Of a stretch of DNA of 64,000 nt, positions 27,315 to 57,155 are shown piece after piece. The notes below the pieces were generated by a model. It was not told where the DNA came from. It did no database searches and worked only from the letters and a program-made list of their open reading frames with translations. Position numbers and translations under genes: made by a program. Source of the DNA: Acidobacteria bacterium 28-9. GTDB taxonomy: Bacteria; Acidobacteriota; Blastocatellia; Pyrinomonadales; Pyrinomonadaceae. The stretch is from positions 32,933 through 96,932 of the forward strand of contig MWYY01000058.1 in the NCBI GenBank assembly GCA_002050355.1, given 5' to 3'. How positions within the stretch are numbered: the first letter of the stretch is position 1; the number at the start of each line of letters is the position of its first letter.

Positions 27315-27919
27315 AAATTCCCGTTGTTATTGCATTGACAATGATTGACGCGGCAGAAAAACAAAGTATTGAAATAGACACGAAAAAACTTGCCTCGCTA
27401 CTGCGAGTTCCTGTCGTTAGTATCAACGCCAAACACAAAATTGGTACCAGAAAGCTTGCCGAAGTTGTATTAAAAGCTGTTGACACCGCACAAATTCCTC
27501 ATCCGGCATGGCTATCGGAGACTGGTTTCGATGATGTAATTCACTTGAGTTTAACGGACGACGCCAAAGTTAACCGCCCGATTTTCGCGCGCTATAATTT
27601 TATTTCCGACGTTTATCAGGAGACAGTCAAACCGAAAGACACACAGGAGAGAAGCATTTCTGAAAAAATTGACCGCATTTTAACGCACAAATTTTTCGGT
27701 CTCGTGATTTTAATTGGAATTTTGCTGCTCGTTTTCCAGACGATTTTTTCGTGGGCGAGTTTGCCGATGGATTTGCTGGAACAAGGTTTCGGCTCGCTCG
27801 GCAATTTTTTACACGCACAAATGTCCGAAGGCATTTTGACCGATTTGATTGTTGACGGCGTAATTGCGGGAGTCGGCGGCGTACTGGTCTTTCTGCCTCA
27901 AATCCTGCTGCTGTTTTTG
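27315..27919. repeat. 605 bp tandem repeat, copy 1
   Basis: Same sequence as 27920..28524; offset 605 at both boundaries. Confidence 0.93.
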
Positions 27920-28524
27920 AAATTCCCGTTGTTATTGCATTGACAATGATTGACGCGGCAGAAAAACAAAGTATTGAAATAGACACGAAAAAACTTGCCT
28001 CGCTACTGCGAGTTCCTGTCGTTAGTATCAACGCCAAACACAAAATTGGTACCAGAAAGCTTGCCGAAGTTGTATTAAAAGCTGTTGACACCGCACAAAT
28101 TCCTCATCCGGCATGGCTATCGGAGACTGGTTTCGATGATGTAATTCACTTGAGTTTAACGGACGACGCCAAAGTTAACCGCCCGATTTTCGCGCGCTAT
28201 AATTTTATTTCCGACGTTTATCAGGAGACAGTCAAACCGAAAGACACACAGGAGAGAAGCATTTCTGAAAAAATTGACCGCATTTTAACGCACAAATTTT
28301 TCGGTCTCGTGATTTTAATTGGAATTTTGCTGCTCGTTTTCCAGACGATTTTTTCGTGGGCGAGTTTGCCGATGGATTTGCTGGAACAAGGTTTCGGCTC
28401 GCTCGGCAATTTTTTACACGCACAAATGTCCGAAGGCATTTTGACCGATTTGATTGTTGACGGCGTAATTGCGGGAGTCGGCGGCGTACTGGTCTTTCTG
28501 CCTCAAATCCTGCTGCTGTTTTTG
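27920..28524. repeat. 605 bp tandem repeat, copy 2
   Basis: Same sequence as 27315..27919. Confidence 0.93.
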
Positions 28525-29822: not shown

Positions 29823-29936
29823 GTCTAACGGCACAGTTGACACGGGGCGAAACCAGCTACACGCAATTCTGAGTTTAACGTAGGACGTTTTTAAGAAAAT
29901 AGCTGTCTCGCGCTCACGTCCAATGATTTGTTCGAC
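29823..29936 (-). repeat. attC-like site C1
   Basis: GTCTAAC...GTTCGAC ends; imperfect palindrome with TTGAC versus TTGGAC extrahelical base; shared core with C2 and C3. Confidence 0.78.
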
Positions 29937-29945
29937 AGCCCGTGA

Positions 29946-30611
29946 TTAGAAGAAATCGTTTTCACGGTCAAAACTATCTCTGTCGGGCGCACAACAATCG
30001 TCTTTGCCTAACTCGACTTGCGGACTTGTTATATTTACTCCGTCTTTTAATGTAATTTCAAATTGATTTGCTTTCTTTCCCTCTGGCATTGTGGCTTTGC
30101 TTCCAAAGCGTTCTTTTGATTCTGCAAACTCACCCTGACACGAAAGCCACCAAATAAAAGGAAAACGCAAATCGATAGAAGCGTTTGGTTCTACGTCAAA
30201 CAATACAATTTTGTTATCGGTAGTTTCGATTAGCAGATAGCTTATTCGGTTAGCCGAGTTGTTTGTAACTTTAATACTGCCAAAAATGTTTTCTGCATCT
30301 TTGGCGTTTCTGCCTATTCTCAAGATTGAATCCGAACTCCAAGAGTTATCAGGATACCGACTTTTAAAGTCACCGTCGAACCAATCGCCTGTGTAAAGCA
30401 GTTTCTGATTTACAAATTGCTTCTCGTTTTGATAAGCGTTCAAATATACACGACGTTCGATAAGATAATTCTCCTGAACAATTTCGACTTTAGTTTGGTT
30501 AGCTGGCGATTCGGTTGAATAAAGTTTTTCACTCCAATAAGCGCAAGCCGAATTTAGAGCAATAAAGGCGATAATTGAAAAAGCAATAATGGTGCGGTTT
30601 TTATTACTCAT
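29946..30611 (-). CDS. Cassette-borne putative lipoprotein, unknown function
   Basis: Hydrophobic N-terminus ending LNSAC; stop abuts C1. Confidence 0.7.
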   Translation of the reverse strand: MSNKNRTIIAFSIIAFIALNSACAYWSEKLYSTESPANQTKVEIVQENYLIERRVYLNAYQNEKQFVNQKLLYTGDWFDGDFKSRYPDNSWSSDSILRIGRNAKDAENIFGSIKVTNNSANRISYLLIETTDNKIVLFDVEPNASIDLRFPFIWWLSCQGEFAESKERFGSKATMPEGKKANQFEITLKDGVNITSPQVELGKDDCCAPDRDSFDRENDFF

Positions 30612-30641
30612 AATTTCAAGCGTTTGAGTTAAAAGAAAGCT

Positions 30642-30724
30642 GTCGAACTTTGTATTCTAATGAATTACGGCTTTCTTATACAGAATTTTTATACTGTAAT
30701 TCCAAAGTCAAAGTCAATAAAAAT
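30642..30724 (-). promoter_or_regulatory. attI/Pc-like boundary B1
   Basis: Minus strand TTGACT-18-TATAAA ... AATACAAAGTTCGAC; highly similar to B2. Confidence 0.68.
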
Positions 30725-30889
30725 TCTAATTATCACTTTACTCCAGGATCGGAAATAATTCAGTGTAAATTTTTACGCTTAATAATTTCCGCAAAGTTTT
30801 TCCGGTTCATATTCTTGACGCTGCGGCGCGTTTGCTCTAACTTGATTCAAGTCTTTTACAAATTTTTCCTGAAATAATAAAATTCATCA

Positions 30890-31744
30890 ATGACAAATCG
30901 TATTCACCGCGAAGTAATCGGCGGTCATCTTCTGGTTATCGGCGGCGCGGAAGATAAATATAACGAGCGGCGAATCTTGAAAAAATTTCTTTCTCTGGCG
31001 GGCGAAGAAAATGCAGAGGTTTTAATTGTACCGGTAGCTTCGGATTTTCCCGAGTTTTCGGCGGACGTTTATGTTCAAGCCTTTCGCAATCTCGGCGTTA
31101 AACATCCGCGCGTATTGCGCGCTACTTCGCGGCAGGACGTTTTTGAAGCTGACGCCGAAGCCTTACTCGACGGCGTTACCGGTGTTTTCATAACCGGCGG
31201 CGACCAGATGCGGCTGGTGTCGGTTCTCGGCGGCACGAATTTCGCGCAGATATTAAGCGAGATGGTTTCTGAAACGAATATCGTCGTCGCCGGAACGAGC
31301 GCGGGTGCTGCCGGAATGAGCGCTTCGATGATTGTGCGCGGCGAATCTACTCCGCACCCGCACAAAAATTCCGTGCGTCTCTCGCCGGGTTTGAGTTTCT
31401 TGAAAAACATCATTATCGACCAGCATTTTACGGAACGCGGGCGCATCAGCCGGTTGATTACGGCGGTTTCTTACAATCCGTATAATCTCGGCATCGGGAT
31501 TGACGAAAACACGGCAATAATTCTCGACAATGAAGGAATTTTAGAAGTTTTCGGCAAAGGCACGGTTACAATAGTCGACGGCTCGCAGATAACTTATAAC
31601 GAAATTGCTGAAGTAAGCGAATATCAACCGTTTAGCGTATGCGGCGTGCAGCTTCATATCCTGGGCGACGGATTAAATTACGATTACTTTGCACGGAATC
31701 CCATACGAATAACCAATGAATTTTTACTGCCTGACATAGAATAA
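30890..31744 (+). CDS. cphB: Cyanophycinase
   Basis: GGHLLVIGGAEDK, FITGGDQMRLV, VVAGTSAGAAGMS. Confidence 0.93.
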   Translation: MTNRIHREVIGGHLLVIGGAEDKYNERRILKKFLSLAGEENAEVLIVPVASDFPEFSADVYVQAFRNLGVKHPRVLRATSRQDVFEADAEALLDGVTGVFITGGDQMRLVSVLGGTNFAQILSEMVSETNIVVAGTSAGAAGMSASMIVRGESTPHPHKNSVRLSPGLSFLKNIIIDQHFTERGRISRLITAVSYNPYNLGIGIDENTAIILDNEGILEVFGKGTVTIVDGSQITYNEIAEVSEYQPFSVCGVQLHILGDGLNYDYFARNPIRITNEFLLPDIE

Positions 31745-31806
31745 TGGTGATTGATTAATGGAAAATCAGTAATTCACCATTTATCAATCACCATTTACCA
31801 TTAAAT

Positions 31807-34443
31807 ATGAAAATTCTCGAAATCAGAACGCTTCGCGGTCCGAATTATTGGAGCGGTTACTGGAAAAAGCTGATAATAATGCGGCTCGACATTGAAGACT
31901 ACGAGCAGAAGCCGACCGACAAAATCGAAGGTTTTTACGAGCGAATGACGGAGGTTTTGCCGTCGCTCGCTTCGCACGGATGCAGCTATCAGGAAGCCGG
32001 CGGATTTATGCGGCGCGTCGAAGAAGGAACTTGGGCGGGACACGCCATCGAGCATTTTGCGCTGGAAATGCAGTCGCTCGCCGGAATGGATGTCGGTTAC
32101 GGCAGAACGCGCGAAACATCCGAGCCGGGAATTTACAACGTCGTTTTTGCTTATCAGGAAGAAGAAGTAGGACGATTTACGGCTCGCGCCGCAGTTGAAT
32201 TTTTTCTCGATTTAGCCGAAGGAAAATCGGTCAAAGAAATAAAAAAACGCCTCGCCGAAGACATCCAGCGAATGCGCGAAATCCGCGAGGAAGTTCGCTT
32301 CGGACCAAGCACGGCTTCGATTGTCGAAGAATCCGAATCGCGCAATATTCCGTTTATACGGCTCAATAACCAATCGCTCGTCCAGCTCGGTTACGGCATT
32401 CACCAGCAGAGAATTCAAGCGACGACAACCGGCAAAACCAATATGATTGCGGTTGACATCGCGGCAAACAAACACGCAGCTAAAAAGCTTCTGAGTGAAA
32501 TGGGCGTTCCGGTTCCGATAGGCTTCAGCATCCGCGACGAAGACGAACTGGAAAGAACAATCGAATCAATCAGCTTTCCCGTCGTAATAAAACCGCTCGA
32601 CGGCAATCACGGCAAGGGCGCAACCGTGGGCATCGAAACTTTGGAAGAAGCGCTCACGGCATTTCAAAAAGCGAAGGAATATTCGCGCAATGTCATTGTC
32701 GAAAAAATGCTTGTCGGAGGCGATTTTCGCGCGCTTGTTGTCAATAATGATTTGATTGCCGTTGCCGAGCGGATTCCGGCGCACGTAATCGGCGACGGCA
32801 AAAATACCATCGAACAATTGATTGACGAAACAAACGCCGACCCGCGGCGCGGCTACGGACACGAAAATGTGCTGACGTTAATTGACGTTGACGAGCAAAC
32901 GGAGAGACTATTACGGGCGAAAAATTACACGCTCGAAACAATTTTGCCGGCAGGCGAAATGCTGCATTTGAAAACGACGGCTAACATTTCAACCGGTGGC
33001 ACGGCGATTGACCGCACGGATGAAGTTCATCCCGAAAACATTTTTCTGTTTGAACGTATTGCAAAAATCGTCGGCTTGGATGTCGCCGGAATTGACGTTA
33101 TCGCGCCGAATGTTTCCGAACCTTTGAGCGAAAACGGCGGCGGAATTATCGAAATAAATGCCGCGCCCGGTTTTCGTATGCACCTCGCGCCCAGCGAAGG
33201 CATCGGCAGAAACGTCGCCGAGCATGTCGTCAATATGCTGTTTCCGCCCGGAAAACCGGCTCGCATTCCGATTATCGCCATCACGGGAACAAACGGCAAA
33301 ACGACGACGACACGCCTGGTCGCGCACATCTTGCGCGGCAGCGGTTTGACCGTCGGTTTTACGACGACCGACGGCACTTATATTCAAAACAATCAAATCA
33401 CGGCGGGCGACAACACTGGACCTGTTTCGGCGCAATTGGTTTTAAAAGACCCTTCGGTTCAAGTCGCGGTTTTGGAAACGGCACGCGGCGGAATCATTCG
33501 CTCGGGTTTGGGATTTGACCATTGCGACATCGGAATTGTAACAAACATCGCCGCCGACCATTTAGGCTTGAAAGACATCAACACTCTGGAAGATCTTGCG
33601 CGAGTCAAATCGGTTATTCCGCGCTCGGTTTCGTCGAAAGGTTTTGCCGTCCTTAATGCCGAAGACGAAAATGTTTTCTGGATGCGAAAATATGTTGACG
33701 GTGAAGTCGTGTATTTTTCGATGGATGAAACGAATAAAAATATTCAAAAACACGCGCGGCGCGGTGGTGTTTCCTGCATTTTTGAAAACGGTTATGTAAC
33801 GATCTTAAAAGGCAAATGGAAAGTGCGCGTTGAAAAGGCGATAAACATTCCGCTCACTTACGGCGGGCGGGCGGAATTTATGATTCAAAACGTTTTGGCG
33901 GCGACTTTGGCGTGTTTCGTTCACAAAGTTTCGCTCGAAGACATCCGCGTCGGTTTAACGACCTTTACGCCTTCGACGGCACAAACGCCCGGACGAATGA
34001 ATTTTATCGAGATAAAAGATTTTACCGTTTTGATGGATTTCGCCCACAATCCGGCGGGAATAAAAGGCTTGCAAAAGTTCATCAACCAACTTTCATACAA
34101 AACGAGAACCGGAATTTTAAGCGGCGTCGGCGACCGGCGCGACGAAGATTTACGCGAAATGGGCAAACTCGCTGCGGAAACCTTCGATACTTTAATTATC
34201 CGTCGCGGCGATTACCTGCGCGGACGCACGGAAGAAAACGTTATTAATCTTCTGCAAGAGGGAATAAAAGAAAGCGGTAAAAACGTTCCGGTAAAAATTG
34301 TCCACGAATCGAAAGAAGCAATTGATTACGCTTTTGAAAACGCCGAAGCAGGCGATTTGATTGTAATATTAGCCGACACGGTGAGCAAAGATATTGAATA
34401 CGTTAATAAATATAGAGACGGACTAAACGAAAATAAAAATTGA
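31807..34443 (+). CDS. cphA: Cyanophycin synthetase
   Basis: ATP-grasp and Mur-ligase-like regions; ITGTNGKTTTTRLVAHIL. Confidence 0.95.
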   Translation: MKILEIRTLRGPNYWSGYWKKLIIMRLDIEDYEQKPTDKIEGFYERMTEVLPSLASHGCSYQEAGGFMRRVEEGTWAGHAIEHFALEMQSLAGMDVGYGRTRETSEPGIYNVVFAYQEEEVGRFTARAAVEFFLDLAEGKSVKEIKKRLAEDIQRMREIREEVRFGPSTASIVEESESRNIPFIRLNNQSLVQLGYGIHQQRIQATTTGKTNMIAVDIAANKHAAKKLLSEMGVPVPIGFSIRDEDELERTIESISFPVVIKPLDGNHGKGATVGIETLEEALTAFQKAKEYSRNVIVEKMLVGGDFRALVVNNDLIAVAERIPAHVIGDGKNTIEQLIDETNADPRRGYGHENVLTLIDVDEQTERLLRAKNYTLETILPAGEMLHLKTTANISTGGTAIDRTDEVHPENIFLFERIAKIVGLDVAGIDVIAPNVSEPLSENGGGIIEINAAPGFRMHLAPSEGIGRNVAEHVVNMLFPPGKPARIPIIAITGTNGKTTTTRLVAHILRGSGLTVGFTTTDGTYIQNNQITAGDNTGPVSAQLVLKDPSVQVAVLETARGGIIRSGLGFDHCDIGIVTNIAADHLGLKDINTLEDLARVKSVIPRSVSSKGFAVLNAEDENVFWMRKYVDGEVVYFSMDETNKNIQKHARRGGVSCIFENGYVTILKGKWKVRVEKAINIPLTYGGRAEFMIQNVLAATLACFVHKVSLEDIRVGLTTFTPSTAQTPGRMNFIEIKDFTVLMDFAHNPAGIKGLQKFINQLSYKTRTGILSGVGDRRDEDLREMGKLAAETFDTLIIRRGDYLRGRTEENVINLLQEGIKESGKNVPVKIVHESKEAIDYAFENAEAGDLIVILADTVSKDIEYVNKYRDGLNENKN

Positions 34444-34551
34444 ACGGCGGAGTTGACGTGGCGCGAAACCATCTACACGCCAGCAAAGTATAACAGACAA
34501 ACTAAATAACAAAGTAGATATTTCTGCTTCACGTCCAATAAATTGTTAGAC
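34439..34551 (-). repeat. attC-like site C2
   Basis: TTGAACGGCGGAGTTGACGTGGCGCGAAACC...CACGTCCAATAAATTGTTAGAC. Confidence 0.75.
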
Positions 34552-34579
34552 AGTGTTTCACTTACAATAATTACTTGAA

Positions 34580-34607
34580 TTGACGTCCATTGAGTTGTTC
34601 GACAGCG
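34580..34607 (-). repeat. Extra attC-like half site (R''/L'')
   Basis: TTGACGTCCATTGAGTTGTTCGACAGCG matches right arms of C1-C3. Confidence 0.65.
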
Positions 34608-34661
34608 CATTGTCAGTAATGACTTCCAAAATCTGATACGCACTTCAAATGTAATTCTTAC

Positions 34662-35180
34662 TTACTGCAAAATGGATAAATATTCTTTCCAAACACCAAC
34701 ATTTTCGGAATACTTTTTCGCCAGAACGATGACGATTTGCCTAAGATGAGTTAAATCGTGAACAACCCAAGTTGAGAGAAGTTGTTCGAGATTTACTTCG
34801 CCCAATTCGGGATGAATTCCTTTCAGTTTTAATTGTTCTTCGGTGAGGCTCATCTGTTGAAGTTTTTCAAGATTTTCCTTTCTTAACCCAGCAAAAGTTT
34901 CAAGCAATTCGCTCAAAGATTTTCCCTCCGATTTTTCAAATTGCGCGAAGCGGTCAAACGGCAGGAATGTCCGATTTTCGCCCTGAGCGAGAATCATTTC
35001 GGCTCGCGGAATCCAGTCTGTTTCCTCGCCGTGTATAAAATGCCCAACGATGTCAAACGGATTCCAGTTTTCCGAATCTTCTTTTTCTGTCCAATCATCG
35101 GAAAGATTTCCGAGCAATAAATTTAAGGCTTCGGGCGTTTGACGCAAAATTTCGATGGCTTGTTCGATTTGAAATTTCAT
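34662..35180 (-). CDS. DinB-superfamily protein (cassette)
   Basis: NPFDIVGHFIHGEE, WVVHDLTHLRQI. Confidence 0.82.
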   Translation of the reverse strand: MKFQIEQAIEILRQTPEALNLLLGNLSDDWTEKEDSENWNPFDIVGHFIHGEETDWIPRAEMILAQGENRTFLPFDRFAQFEKSEGKSLSELLETFAGLRKENLEKLQQMSLTEEQLKLKGIHPELGEVNLEQLLSTWVVHDLTHLRQIVIVLAKKYSENVGVWKEYLSILQ

Positions 35181-35219
35181 CGTTTAATCTCCAAACAAGT
35201 ATAACAAACAATCGAAGCT

Positions 35220-35332
35220 GTCGAACGGTTGAGATGACGTGGGGCGAAACCGAATACACGCAACGTCGAGTTAAAAAGACAACGTAATAAAAGAGTCGCT
35301 GTTTCGTCCTCACGTCCAATGACTTGTTCGGC
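35220..35332 (-). repeat. attC-like site C3
   Basis: GTCGAACGG...GATGACGTGGGGCGAAACC...CTCACGTCCAATGACTTGTTCGGC. Confidence 0.78.
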
Positions 35333-35338
35333 TCGGCG

Positions 35339-35860
35339 TTATTTTCCATACGCCATTTCTGCCACAACTACGGGCAAGTTTGTTTCAATCAAAATGCGTT
35401 TATCAAGACCGCGCAAATACGCGCCTTCACCTTGTAGGGTTACTCCACAATCCGACAATGCCGCTTGTGCTTCTGTCGGAATACGCTCAACTGCCATTTT
35501 TATTTCGCCTAGAATTATTTCAACTTCCTTTGAAATTGCCGCGCTAATTTCGGCTTCCGTGACAGTCACGATTCGTGGAACTCTGGCTTCCGTATCGCGT
35601 CCGCGCACTTCCATTGAAAGCGTGTCGTCTTCGGGAAACGCGCTGCCAGCAGCGATTGTGATGGCTTCGGCTGTTCGCTCGCCAATGAGCAAGTTGAGAT
35701 TCCGACGAAAATGCTCGATAACCGCTTCGCCAAAAGTTTGAGTTCCAACGGGAAAACTGTGCGAATAAACAGTGCGTCCGTCAACTTCGGCGACAACTTC
35801 CGATTCTGTGATGCCGATGCTGGCTGTTACAAGCGTCGGTTTAAAGTTTTCAACTTTCAT
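35339..35860 (-). CDS. Truncated MreB-like (actin-fold domain II) protein (cassette)
   Basis: HFRRNLNLLIGERTAEAITIAAGSAFPEDDTLSMEVRGRDTEARVPRIVTVTEAEI...LQGEGAYLRGLDKRILIETNLPVVVAE resembles MreB C-terminal half. Confidence 0.75.
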   Translation of the reverse strand: MKVENFKPTLVTASIGITESEVVAEVDGRTVYSHSFPVGTQTFGEAVIEHFRRNLNLLIGERTAEAITIAAGSAFPEDDTLSMEVRGRDTEARVPRIVTVTEAEISAAISKEVEIILGEIKMAVERIPTEAQAALSDCGVTLQGEGAYLRGLDKRILIETNLPVVVAEMAYGK

Positions 35861-35890
35861 AACATCAACCGTCGAATTTTATAGGAAAGA

Positions 35891-35973
35891 GCCGAACTTT
35901 GTATTCTGCTGAATTAAAGTTTTCTTAGACCGAATTTTTTATAAGGCTTTTTTGGTCGAAAGTCAATAAAAAG
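35891..35973 (-). promoter_or_regulatory. attI/Pc-like boundary B2
   Basis: Minus strand TTGACT-17-TATAAA ... AATACAAAGTTCGGC; similar to B1. Confidence 0.68.
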
Positions 35974-36014
35974 CTTGATTTTGATTAGTGATTGAAGTAT
36001 CTTCGTGCGTAAAT

Positions 36015-36050
36015 AAAAAATTCCGCCTAAATTTTTAGGCGGAATTTTTT
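36015..36050. terminator. Terminator hairpin overlapping 3' end of iaaA
   Basis: AAAATTCCGCCTAAATTTTTAGGCGGAATTTTTTT. Confidence 0.65.
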
Positions 36051-45648: not shown

Positions 45649-46618
45649 TATGAAAAACAAAGTTCGGTTTGAAAGAGACTTTACTCTTGCGTCAGCCGAA
45701 GAACAAATAAGCACGGAAAACGGAAATACAGACGACGGAAACACGGATTTTTTATCTCTTGCCGAAGAAGTCCGCGCCCGTAGTCAAAAACCGAAAAATA
45801 CGCCGCTTTCATTACCGCAGAAATTAGCTCCGGCAGAGTTTAACACTGCTCTGGCGCATTTTTATCGCGGTGAAGTCCAGCGCTCGAACGTCTGGCGCAC
45901 TCGGCTTGACGCGACGACGAATTGGGCTGTTATTACGGCGGGTGCAACGCTCTCTTTCGTTTTCAGCTCGCCCGACAACCCGCATTTTGCCATTCCGATA
46001 AATTCGATACTGGTTTCGATTTTCCTTTTTATGGAAGCGCGGCGTTATCGCTATTACGAAGTCTGGGCAAATCGCGTGCGAGTGCTTGAAACCGGCTATT
46101 TCGCGCCGATGCTTTCGCACCAGACGATGCCGCCCGATAAAGAATGGGCTGACCATATATCGGCGGATTTGTTAACACCGCATTTTACAATCAGCGAATG
46201 GGAAGCCATCGGCAGACGCCTTCGCAGCAATTACATCTGGATTTTTATGTTGCTGGCTTTAAGCTGGGGACTAAAAATATATATTCATCCGTTTCCGATT
46301 CCGGCTGTCTCGCCCGACGAAAGAGCAAAATTCTGGCAGGTTTTTCTCAACCGCGCGCAGGTCGGACTCGCTCCTGGGTGGCTAACTATCGGTTTCGGCT
46401 TTCTTTTCAATGCCGTAATATTTGCCATTGCCATCGGAACTATGAAATTGAAAGACGCTTCGAGCGAAGTTCTGCCGCTTGAAAATTTTGAATGGCATCC
46501 GCTCAAACAAGTTTCTACTTGGGCAGGAACAAATCTCAAACGCCGTAACCCGATTCGCCGCGCCAAAAAAGCACGCCAGCGCGTCCGTTCGATTCACACT
46601 ACGGAAGCAACAAAATAA
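45649..46618 (+). CDS. DUF2270-like membrane protein
   Basis: HFYRGEVQRSNVWRTRLDATTNWAVI; start chosen at MKNKVRF inside ORF 45569..46618. Confidence 0.75.
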
Positions 46619-56105: not shown

Positions 56106-57155
56106 TTAGACTGCTTTTGCTAAAGACATTTTCTTGATTGCCTCTGTTTTGAGAGTTTCAGACGGGTGGGCATATCGAGTAACCATTTGTAGGTTTGAAT
56201 GACCTAGAAGGGAAGCCAACACAACTAAATCAACTCCGCTTTCAATTGCCCGCGTTGCGAATGTATGACGGCAATCATAAAGTCGGAAATCAAATTTTAA
56301 CTTCTTGATAACTTCCCGGTGTAAAACATTCAGAGTTGTAACGGGTGGGTTGCCGTCAATGTCATTTAAGGGGAAAAGAAATTCGTTCCTAAAAAAACCA
56401 AATCTTTTTTCCAGAATATTTATTGCCGTGTCGGTTAAATGAATTTGTCTAATTGAAGATTTCGTTTTGCCTTTTGCGACTTTCAAAAACCCTTTCTCGA
56501 TTGAGACATCCTGCTTTTGGAGATTATAAACTTCGCCACATCTTAGCCCGGTTTCAAGCATTAAGGTTGCTACATCACGGAGAGGCTGCGCGGCGGCAAG
56601 CAAATATCGAATCTGTTCTTCTTTTGAAATAACGTGGAAGCTTCGGGCATTTGCTTTTAATTGTTTGATTTTTCTGGTTGAATTCTCTAGCAGCACATTA
56701 GCATCGAACAATCTTCTAAAAATCATTTTCAAAGCCGTCAAATCTCTATTTACTGTTTCTCTGGTTATTTTCTCCTTTGTCTTACGAGACGTTTGATTAC
56801 ATCTCCAGACAAGGAAGTTCTCGACATCTTTTGCCGTTATACGGTCAACCCTTACGGTTCCAAAATACTTTTCAAGTGCCTTGCACGAAAACTCATATCG
56901 GTAGAAAGTGCCTTTCGCGCCCGAGTGTTTTATTGCTAGCCACTTTAGAAAGTCCTGTACGGCTTCTCTAAATGTTGGTGCCTTTTCTTTTGGCTTAATG
57001 CCAATCTTGCCAAGCGCAAGCTGTGTTCTATAAGCAGATTCGACAGTTGCCGCATCGCGTTTGTTTGCGACCTTTGTTGATTTTTGGATAAGCTCGCCGT
57101 CAAAGACGAACTTCATCCACCAGTATTTTGAGTTTGGGCGTTTATAAAGTGCCAT
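56106..57155 (-). CDS. Tyrosine recombinase/phage integrase
   Basis: LMLETGLRCGEVYNLQ, LYDCRHTFATRAIESGVDLVVLASLLGHSNLQMVTRYAH. Confidence 0.93.
   Translation of the reverse strand: MALYKRPNSKYWWMKFVFDGELIQKSTKVANKRDAATVESAYRTQLALGKIGIKPKEKAPTFREAVQDFLKWLAIKHSGAKGTFYRYEFSCKALEKYFGTVRVDRITAKDVENFLVWRCNQTSRKTKEKITRETVNRDLTALKMIFRRLFDANVLLENSTRKIKQLKANARSFHVISKEEQIRYLLAAAQPLRDVATLMLETGLRCGEVYNLQKQDVSIEKGFLKVAKGKTKSSIRQIHLTDTAINILEKRFGFFRNEFLFPLNDIDGNPPVTTLNVLHREVIKKLKFDFRLYDCRHTFATRAIESGVDLVVLASLLGHSNLQMVTRYAHPSETLKTEAIKKMSLAKAV

Follow-up and report, generated by a model that had tools for sequence, protein, structure and literature searches.

The window analyzed here is a 64-kb stretch of DNA from a Pyrinomonadaceae-type acidobacterium. 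It carries two small arrays of gene cassettes on the minus strand, with the host genes cphB and cphA lying between them. Each array ends in attC sites and begins at a short module comprising a palindrome, a promoter-like sequence and a putative attI core. An earlier note, made from the letters of the sequence, had described three attC-like sites of ~113 bp (C1–C3) beside single-gene cassettes around cyanophycin genes, with no integrase in view. Its coordinates and lengths are right, as are the single-gene cassettes and their position. The range it covered (29823–35332), however, ends before the attI/promoter module at 35897–36049, which is the most informative part. The features are as follows.

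29823..29936, minus: C1, attC of cassette 1; match to covariance model R2, E 1.5e-19
29829..30647, minus: cassette 1, 819 bp between the attI-1 and C1 crossovers, from its G|TT boundaries and end complementarity
29946..30611, minus: gene of cassette 1, 221 aa, lipoprotein-like by eye
30648..30788, minus: module 1; palindrome, promoter-like sequence and attI core AGAATACAAAG, homologous to the intI-adjacent region of relatives
30753–30788: palindrome of module 1
30712–30717 and 30688–30693: promoter-like TTGACT and TATAAA of module 1, 18-nt spacer
30648/30647: attI crossover of module 1
30890..31744, plus: cphB (cyanophycinase), host gene beside platform 1, named from sequence and genus orthologues
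31807..34443, plus: cphA (cyanophycin synthetase), host gene between the two arrays, from its ORF and orthologues
34439..34551, minus: C2, attC at the distal end of array 2, adjoining the cphA stop codon; R2 match, E 1.9e-16
~34572–34606, minus: collapsed attC remnant, R'' GCTGTCGAAC plus L'' fused to L'-like sequence
34662..35180, minus: DinB_2 superfamily cassette gene, 172 aa; PF12867, E 8.9e-14
35220..35332, minus: C3, attC of the MreB-half cassette; R2 match, E 2.8e-26
35226..35896, minus: MreB-half cassette; end complementarity 9/10
35339..35860, minus: cassette gene for an MreB-like C-terminal half, 173 aa; PF06723, E 1.9e-32
35897..36049, minus: module 2; palindrome, promoter-like sequence and attI core, no intI
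about 36015–36049: palindrome of module 2
35961–35966 and 35938–35943: promoter-like TTGACT and TATAAA of module 2, 17-nt spacer
35897/35896: attI crossover of module 2

The product of the cassette 1 gene has no Pfam or NCBIfam family match. The MreB-like protein covers positions 146–306 of the 327 in PF06723 and is in frame from its own ATG. Elsewhere in the window, feoB (27315–28219) is split into two overlapping ORFs by an exact direct repeat (reported length 300 nt, copies 605 bp apart), which could reflect either a true tandem duplication or a misassembly.

attC sites and cassette boundaries

attC sites are imperfect palindromes of 57–142 nt in which the R''-L'' arm has at least two extrahelical bases, as a rule six nucleotides apart. 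C1, C2 and C3 fall inside this size range at 113–114 nt, and all three show the canonical R''-L''-L'-R' order on the minus strand. An attC carries an inverse core, RYYYAAC, at one end and a core, GTTRRRY, at the other (PMC3053210). The core pairs (R''/R') in the window are GTCGAAC/GTTAGAC for C1, GTCTAAC/GTTCAAT for C2 and GCCGAAC/GTTCGAC for C3. AAC and GTT are invariant in all 28 sites of alignment A1, and the base after GTT is often C and not R.

Covariance model R1 was made from 28 sites. Since these include the window sites, a second model (R2) was built from 22 attC sites taken entirely from other genomes. On the 64-kb window, R2 matches C1, C2, C3 and the reverse strand of C3 (E 0.0014), and its next match has an E-value of 0.79. 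Six stem pairs have changed on both sides, a figure reached in none of 500 shuffles, and 99.8% of cells in the stem are paired versus 32–47% when slid. The attC hallmarks pointed out in the earlier note are borne out, including the imperfect palindrome formed by the arms. The single conserved unpaired base it described is in fact two, top-strand G16 and A23 on the R''-L'' arm, which are separated by six paired columns and are invariant in 28 of 28 A1 sites. On the bottom strand these extrahelical bases read T-N6-C, as they do throughout the whole attC family (alignments A1 and A2). This falls within the known geometry of extrahelical bases in attC, which is most often T-N6-G; in 2011, blaVIM-2 was named as the only known cassette with C at the second position (PMC3053210). 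The structural evidence is comparative, since single-sequence DNA folding energies of the sites are unexceptional (z −1.05 to +0.29). Rfam at the gathering threshold returned tRNAs, SRP RNA and a c-di-AMP riboswitch, with no match at the attC sites.

The sites have many relatives in the source genome (G000). A 131-nt query around C3 gave at least 40 matches there. The attC covariance model and genome-wide count proposed in the earlier note gave 76 sites (R1, E ≤ 1e-6), spread across ~30 contigs with clusters on C43, C37, C68, C36, C81 and C82. Contig C36 (L057) also holds an identical attC pair (45918–46030 and 46328–46440, 410 bp apart) close to a tyrosine recombinase fragment (45660–45845), representing either a duplicated cassette or an assembly repeat.

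If each cassette once was a circle closed at its attC, high agreement between its two ends is expected. For 48 cassettes lying between consecutive attC sites in the source genome and its genus relatives, the ten R'' bases were checked against the reverse-complemented first ten bases of the same cassette. Mean agreement was 9.1/10 versus 6.2 (sd 0.18) for shuffled pairs, and R'' and R' of the same site agreed at only 6.1/10. In the window, R'' of cassette 1 is complementary to its own cassette start at ten of ten positions.

The start of the DinB cassette is complementary to R'' of C2 at 8/10 positions. Between C2 and its gene lies the collapsed attC remnant, with an R'' that complements the DinB cassette start, GTTCGACAGC, exactly. 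Because of this exact match, C2 probably ends another cassette, one whose gene was lost, and the remnant is probably the original attC of the DinB cassette. The suggestion that each site lies just 3′ of a minus-strand gene holds for C1 and C3 (7–10 bp) and fails for C2 (111 bp). Taken as a whole, C1, C2 and C3 are almost certainly genuine attC sites of an acidobacterium.

Putative Pc-attI modules and their distribution in the genus

Both window arrays start at a module of 140–155 bp that contains the palindrome, the TTGACT/TATAAA pair and AGAATACAAAG|TT. The consensus of the module family is a ~30-bp palindrome, TTGACT, 17–18 nt, TATAAA and ATTCAGTAGAATACAAAG|TT. In five genus genomes (G001, G002, G003:C17, G004 and G005), the same module sits immediately upstream of intI and is divergent from it, and it is on this ground that it is taken to be the Pc-attI region. 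Module 2, for example, is 95% identical over 91 bp to the intI-adjacent module of G003:C17, and 87% identical over 163 bp to the module of G003:C23. Curated attI models cover class 1 only, so the attI identity rests on homology and position. A promoter/terminator consensus scanner flags neither window module, because the −10 hexamer ends in A; the TTGACT/TATAAA pair is conserved among the modules and may act as the Pc promoter. The palindrome at the 5′ edge varies between copies yet stays palindromic, as its arms change together. In copies that adjoin intI it lies ~12 nt from the intI start, on the upstream side, and it may be an operator, a terminator or an mRNA hairpin.

Module matches (E ≤ 1e-3) number seven in the source genome and up to 13 per genus relative, and most copies sit at unrelated loci without intI. 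The copies of G005 are on contigs of 0.77 to 2.0 Mb and are therefore not assembly fragments in that genome. Of the modules without intI, 26 have an intact core and 600 bp or more of sequence downstream, and 19 of these were counted as followed by an attC in the same orientation. The first cassettes at 23 attI platforms start at G|TT, with an end agreement of 8.4/10 versus 5.9 (sd 0.26) when shuffled. In this test the contexts were entered by hand, the crossovers were set from aligned module contexts, and TATAAAAATT was not taken as a crossover. Two of the 23 platforms use a second attI type, GGGTTTATGCCGC...ATAACTAG|TT, which occurs beside a second kind of intI at G000:C43 (L056) and G003:C72 (L155). 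Outside the genus, G021 has the same layout adjoining intI, and a search of its genome found no further copies of its attI. Together, these results make it very likely that the window holds Pc-attI platforms devoid of intI.

Platform 1 is found at an orthologous place in three relatives. The module lies upstream of cphB in the source genome, G003, G004 and G005, with host flank in common; that of G004 is broken by an insertion, and G005 has a transposase-like insertion between cphB and the module. Nucleotide homology between the window and G003 spans cphA, cphB and the module, and ends no more than 3 bp from the attI crossover. Beyond this point, the number of attC sites matched by R1 is one in the window, six in G003 and three in G005, and these three arrays have no cassette in common. 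Different genes at an orthologous, intI-less entry site suggest many landing sites served by an integrase elsewhere. These cassettes could also predate intI loss, provided that each lineage lost intI on its own. In a search for a clean empty site, G009 proved to have the cphB-proximal flank without a module, and no exact pre-insertion site is readable there because its far flank is a different gene.

Additional orthologous platforms without intI are G004:C250/G001:C242, G005:C1:172/G003:C63 and G004:C287/G000:C72. Related cassettes are also found at platforms that are not orthologous. The pairs are G000:C30 and G003:C23 (79% over 667 bp), G002:C150 and G003:C23 (80% over 677 bp), and G004:C300 and the cphB platform of G005 (72% over 344 bp). 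These similarities fit movement between platforms, and repeated acquisition is possible too.

Two junctions bear on how the modules themselves may have spread. G002:C150 has a 146-nt copy that matches the Pc-attI of the intI-bearing G002:C184 at 100% identity and abuts another module precisely at the attI crossover of the latter (AAAG|TTCGGC...CAAAG|TT), and in G009:C615 a module directly follows an attC crossover. Both fit IntI moving the Pc-attI region as a gene-less unit, an idea that the sequences raise as a tentative possibility. In most other copies, the 5′ edge coincides with the outer end of the palindrome and not with TT; these may have arisen in another way, for example by deletion of intI beside a conserved promoter-attI region.

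Integrase genes, remnants and losses

No intI occurs within the window, as the earlier note had stated. The closest match (56166–56774) was rejected as an integron integrase, being a generic tyrosine recombinase with 22% identity to IntI of the genus. The search for intI that the note had also proposed found only broken pieces in the source genome, with no intact gene above the TIGR02249 cut-off. The best piece scores 262.8 bits, with two stops, against a cut-off of 265. An N-terminal part at C43:16116–16774, frameshifted and missing its C-terminus, heads an array of ten attC sites in the usual divergent layout. A C-terminal half with two stops is found at C47:35311–35907, and further scraps lie on C21 and C49. 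The source genome is a draft (86.6% complete, 117 contigs) and may lack an intact intI for that reason; its relatives are metagenome-assembled.

In a search of 80 genomes, the source genome included, TIGR02249 has matches in 45 at E ≤ 1e-40; the cut-off is passed by 41, including all nine other members of the genus searched (324–459 bits). The gene is full-length and free of stops in eight of the nine, and the G005 copy is split by a frameshift. Genus genomes carry one to two recognizable intI copies, as compared to up to 13 modules. In G003, an intact intI of the second kind (C72) coexists with a broken copy of the other kind. The earlier note had tied its attC reading to matches by an attC model, integrases in related genomes and variable genes beside the sites. 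The models match, relatives have intI, and the cassette genes vary.

Comparison of orthologous loci shows that intI has been lost at two places in the source genome where relatives have it. G000:C22 has 2.3 kb of flank in common with the intI loci of G005, G006, G007 and G009, and what is left of intI there is its final ~15 codons (AQNNRLGVKSQIDL*), fused to the module. The flank of the G004 intI locus recurs at G000:C62 and at part of G005:C1:556, both of which are without intI. A deletion intermediate is seen at G003:C73, where only the start of intI is left. A different kind of change is apparent between G002:C184 (L154) and G008:C367 (L161). The flank downstream of intI is 91% identical, intI itself only 69%, and the attI type differs, as if an intI-attI unit had been exchanged at a conserved locus.

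Possible origin and significance of the integrase-less platforms

The reading that best explains these observations, and one that is considered likely, is that the two small arrays in the window belong to a distributed chromosomal integron in which attI platforms occur without intI. In each array, one or two attC-terminated cassettes come after a Pc-attI platform, and intI is absent. An integrase encoded elsewhere in the genome would serve these attI sites in trans, and cassettes would have been exchanged after intI was gone from the locus. Judged on sequence comparison, service by IntI in trans probably took place at some time. Since all intI copies in the assembly are broken, the system could by now be frozen in this species, and its present activity here is improbable.

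An alternative is that the ancestor of the genus had many complete integrons, each of which lost intI independently to leave frozen relics with no traffic in trans. This is rather unlikely, and nevertheless has direct observations in its favor, namely the losses at G000:C22 and C62, losses in progress at C43 and G003:C17, and the intermediate at G003:C73. It would, however, require many intI-bearing integrons where genus genomes show one or two intI copies beside their numerous modules. Moreover, most modules stop at the same palindrome with no trace of intI past it, related cassettes occur at non-orthologous platforms, and relatives retain intact IntI that is in principle able to act in trans. 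Insertion of cassettes by IntI at random attG-like sites, giving clusters of attC sites lacking integron-integrases (CALINs) without attI, is very improbable for the window. attG sites are known in principle (cited in PMC12444791), and off-target insertion may hold for some other arrays of the source genome, where many attC-bearing contigs have no established attI module. Both window arrays nonetheless begin at a module homologous to the intI-adjacent Pc-attI region, and the window platform is conserved across species. Random insertion is not supported at these two loci, since the first cassette starts exactly at the attI crossover. The idea that the repeats are other dispersed palindromes (REP/MITE-like sequences or terminators) can practically be dismissed. 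Similar ~113-nt repeats do occur across the genome and their folding energies are ordinary, but this idea was rejected given the mutual complementarity of cassette ends, the arrays that adjoin integron integrases in relatives, the two invariant extrahelical positions and the covariation.

Sedentary chromosomal integrons have been defined, and Acidobacteriota are among the phyla with integrons (PMC8618304, PMC8352920). The present system resembles them in its integrase family, in an attI upstream of and divergent from intI, and in cassette arrays whose attC sites are related; contig C43 carries one copy of this layout, which is broken. It differs in that the window arrays have attI and a promoter-like sequence at the array head and lack the adjacent intI of a complete integron, and in having several platforms per genome rather than one. 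CALINs are defined by default in IntegronFinder 2.0 as at least two attC sites without an integrase nearby, regardless of attI, which the program does not detect outside class 1, where it is poorly described (PMC9024848). Array 2 has two attC sites (C2 and C3), while array 1 has one (C1) and falls below this threshold. The "CALIN-like" label of the earlier note fits insofar as the attC clusters have no nearby intI, and is incomplete insofar as both retain an attI and promoter-like module.

Proposed origins of CALINs are off-target insertion, intI loss and rearrangement (PMC8618304). CALINs of Xanthomonas are found at conserved loci, and the portion of that report consulted (PMC12444791) likewise describes intI-less arrays at the same chromosomal places across species, progressive intI loss and a single home locus of intI. 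That portion reports no attI, whereas attI-promoter modules are present here, and cassette content here differs between species at one platform. ΔattI gene cassettes of mobile integrons are alike in that attI travels inside a cassette-like unit (PMC12901181), as in the 146-nt Pc-attI unit lying exactly between two crossovers in G002:C150. In ΔattI cassettes, however, attI replaces attC behind a resistance gene (PMC12901181), whereas the G002:C150 unit is gene-less and comprises a promoter-like sequence and attI. In the open-access literature, no report was found of multiple or integrase-less attI sites served in trans, or of several intI-less attI-promoter platforms per genome.

An integron is generally portrayed as a single integrase with a single attI and a single array. 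Genomes of the present genus carry several attI-promoter platforms each, the majority lacking an integrase, and some platforms occupy one chromosomal position in different species while holding different cassettes. If these are served in trans, a single IntI could insert genes downstream of several promoters. If the Pc-attI region is itself mobile, an integron could also seed new promoter-equipped landing platforms around its own chromosome. Current tools ignore attI outside class 1, and such platforms would therefore be counted as debris. They offer a candidate, testable route by which CALINs arise and could stay usable. The genus supplies natural experiments, with intI present or absent at the same locus and different cassettes at the same platform, that make service in trans directly testable.
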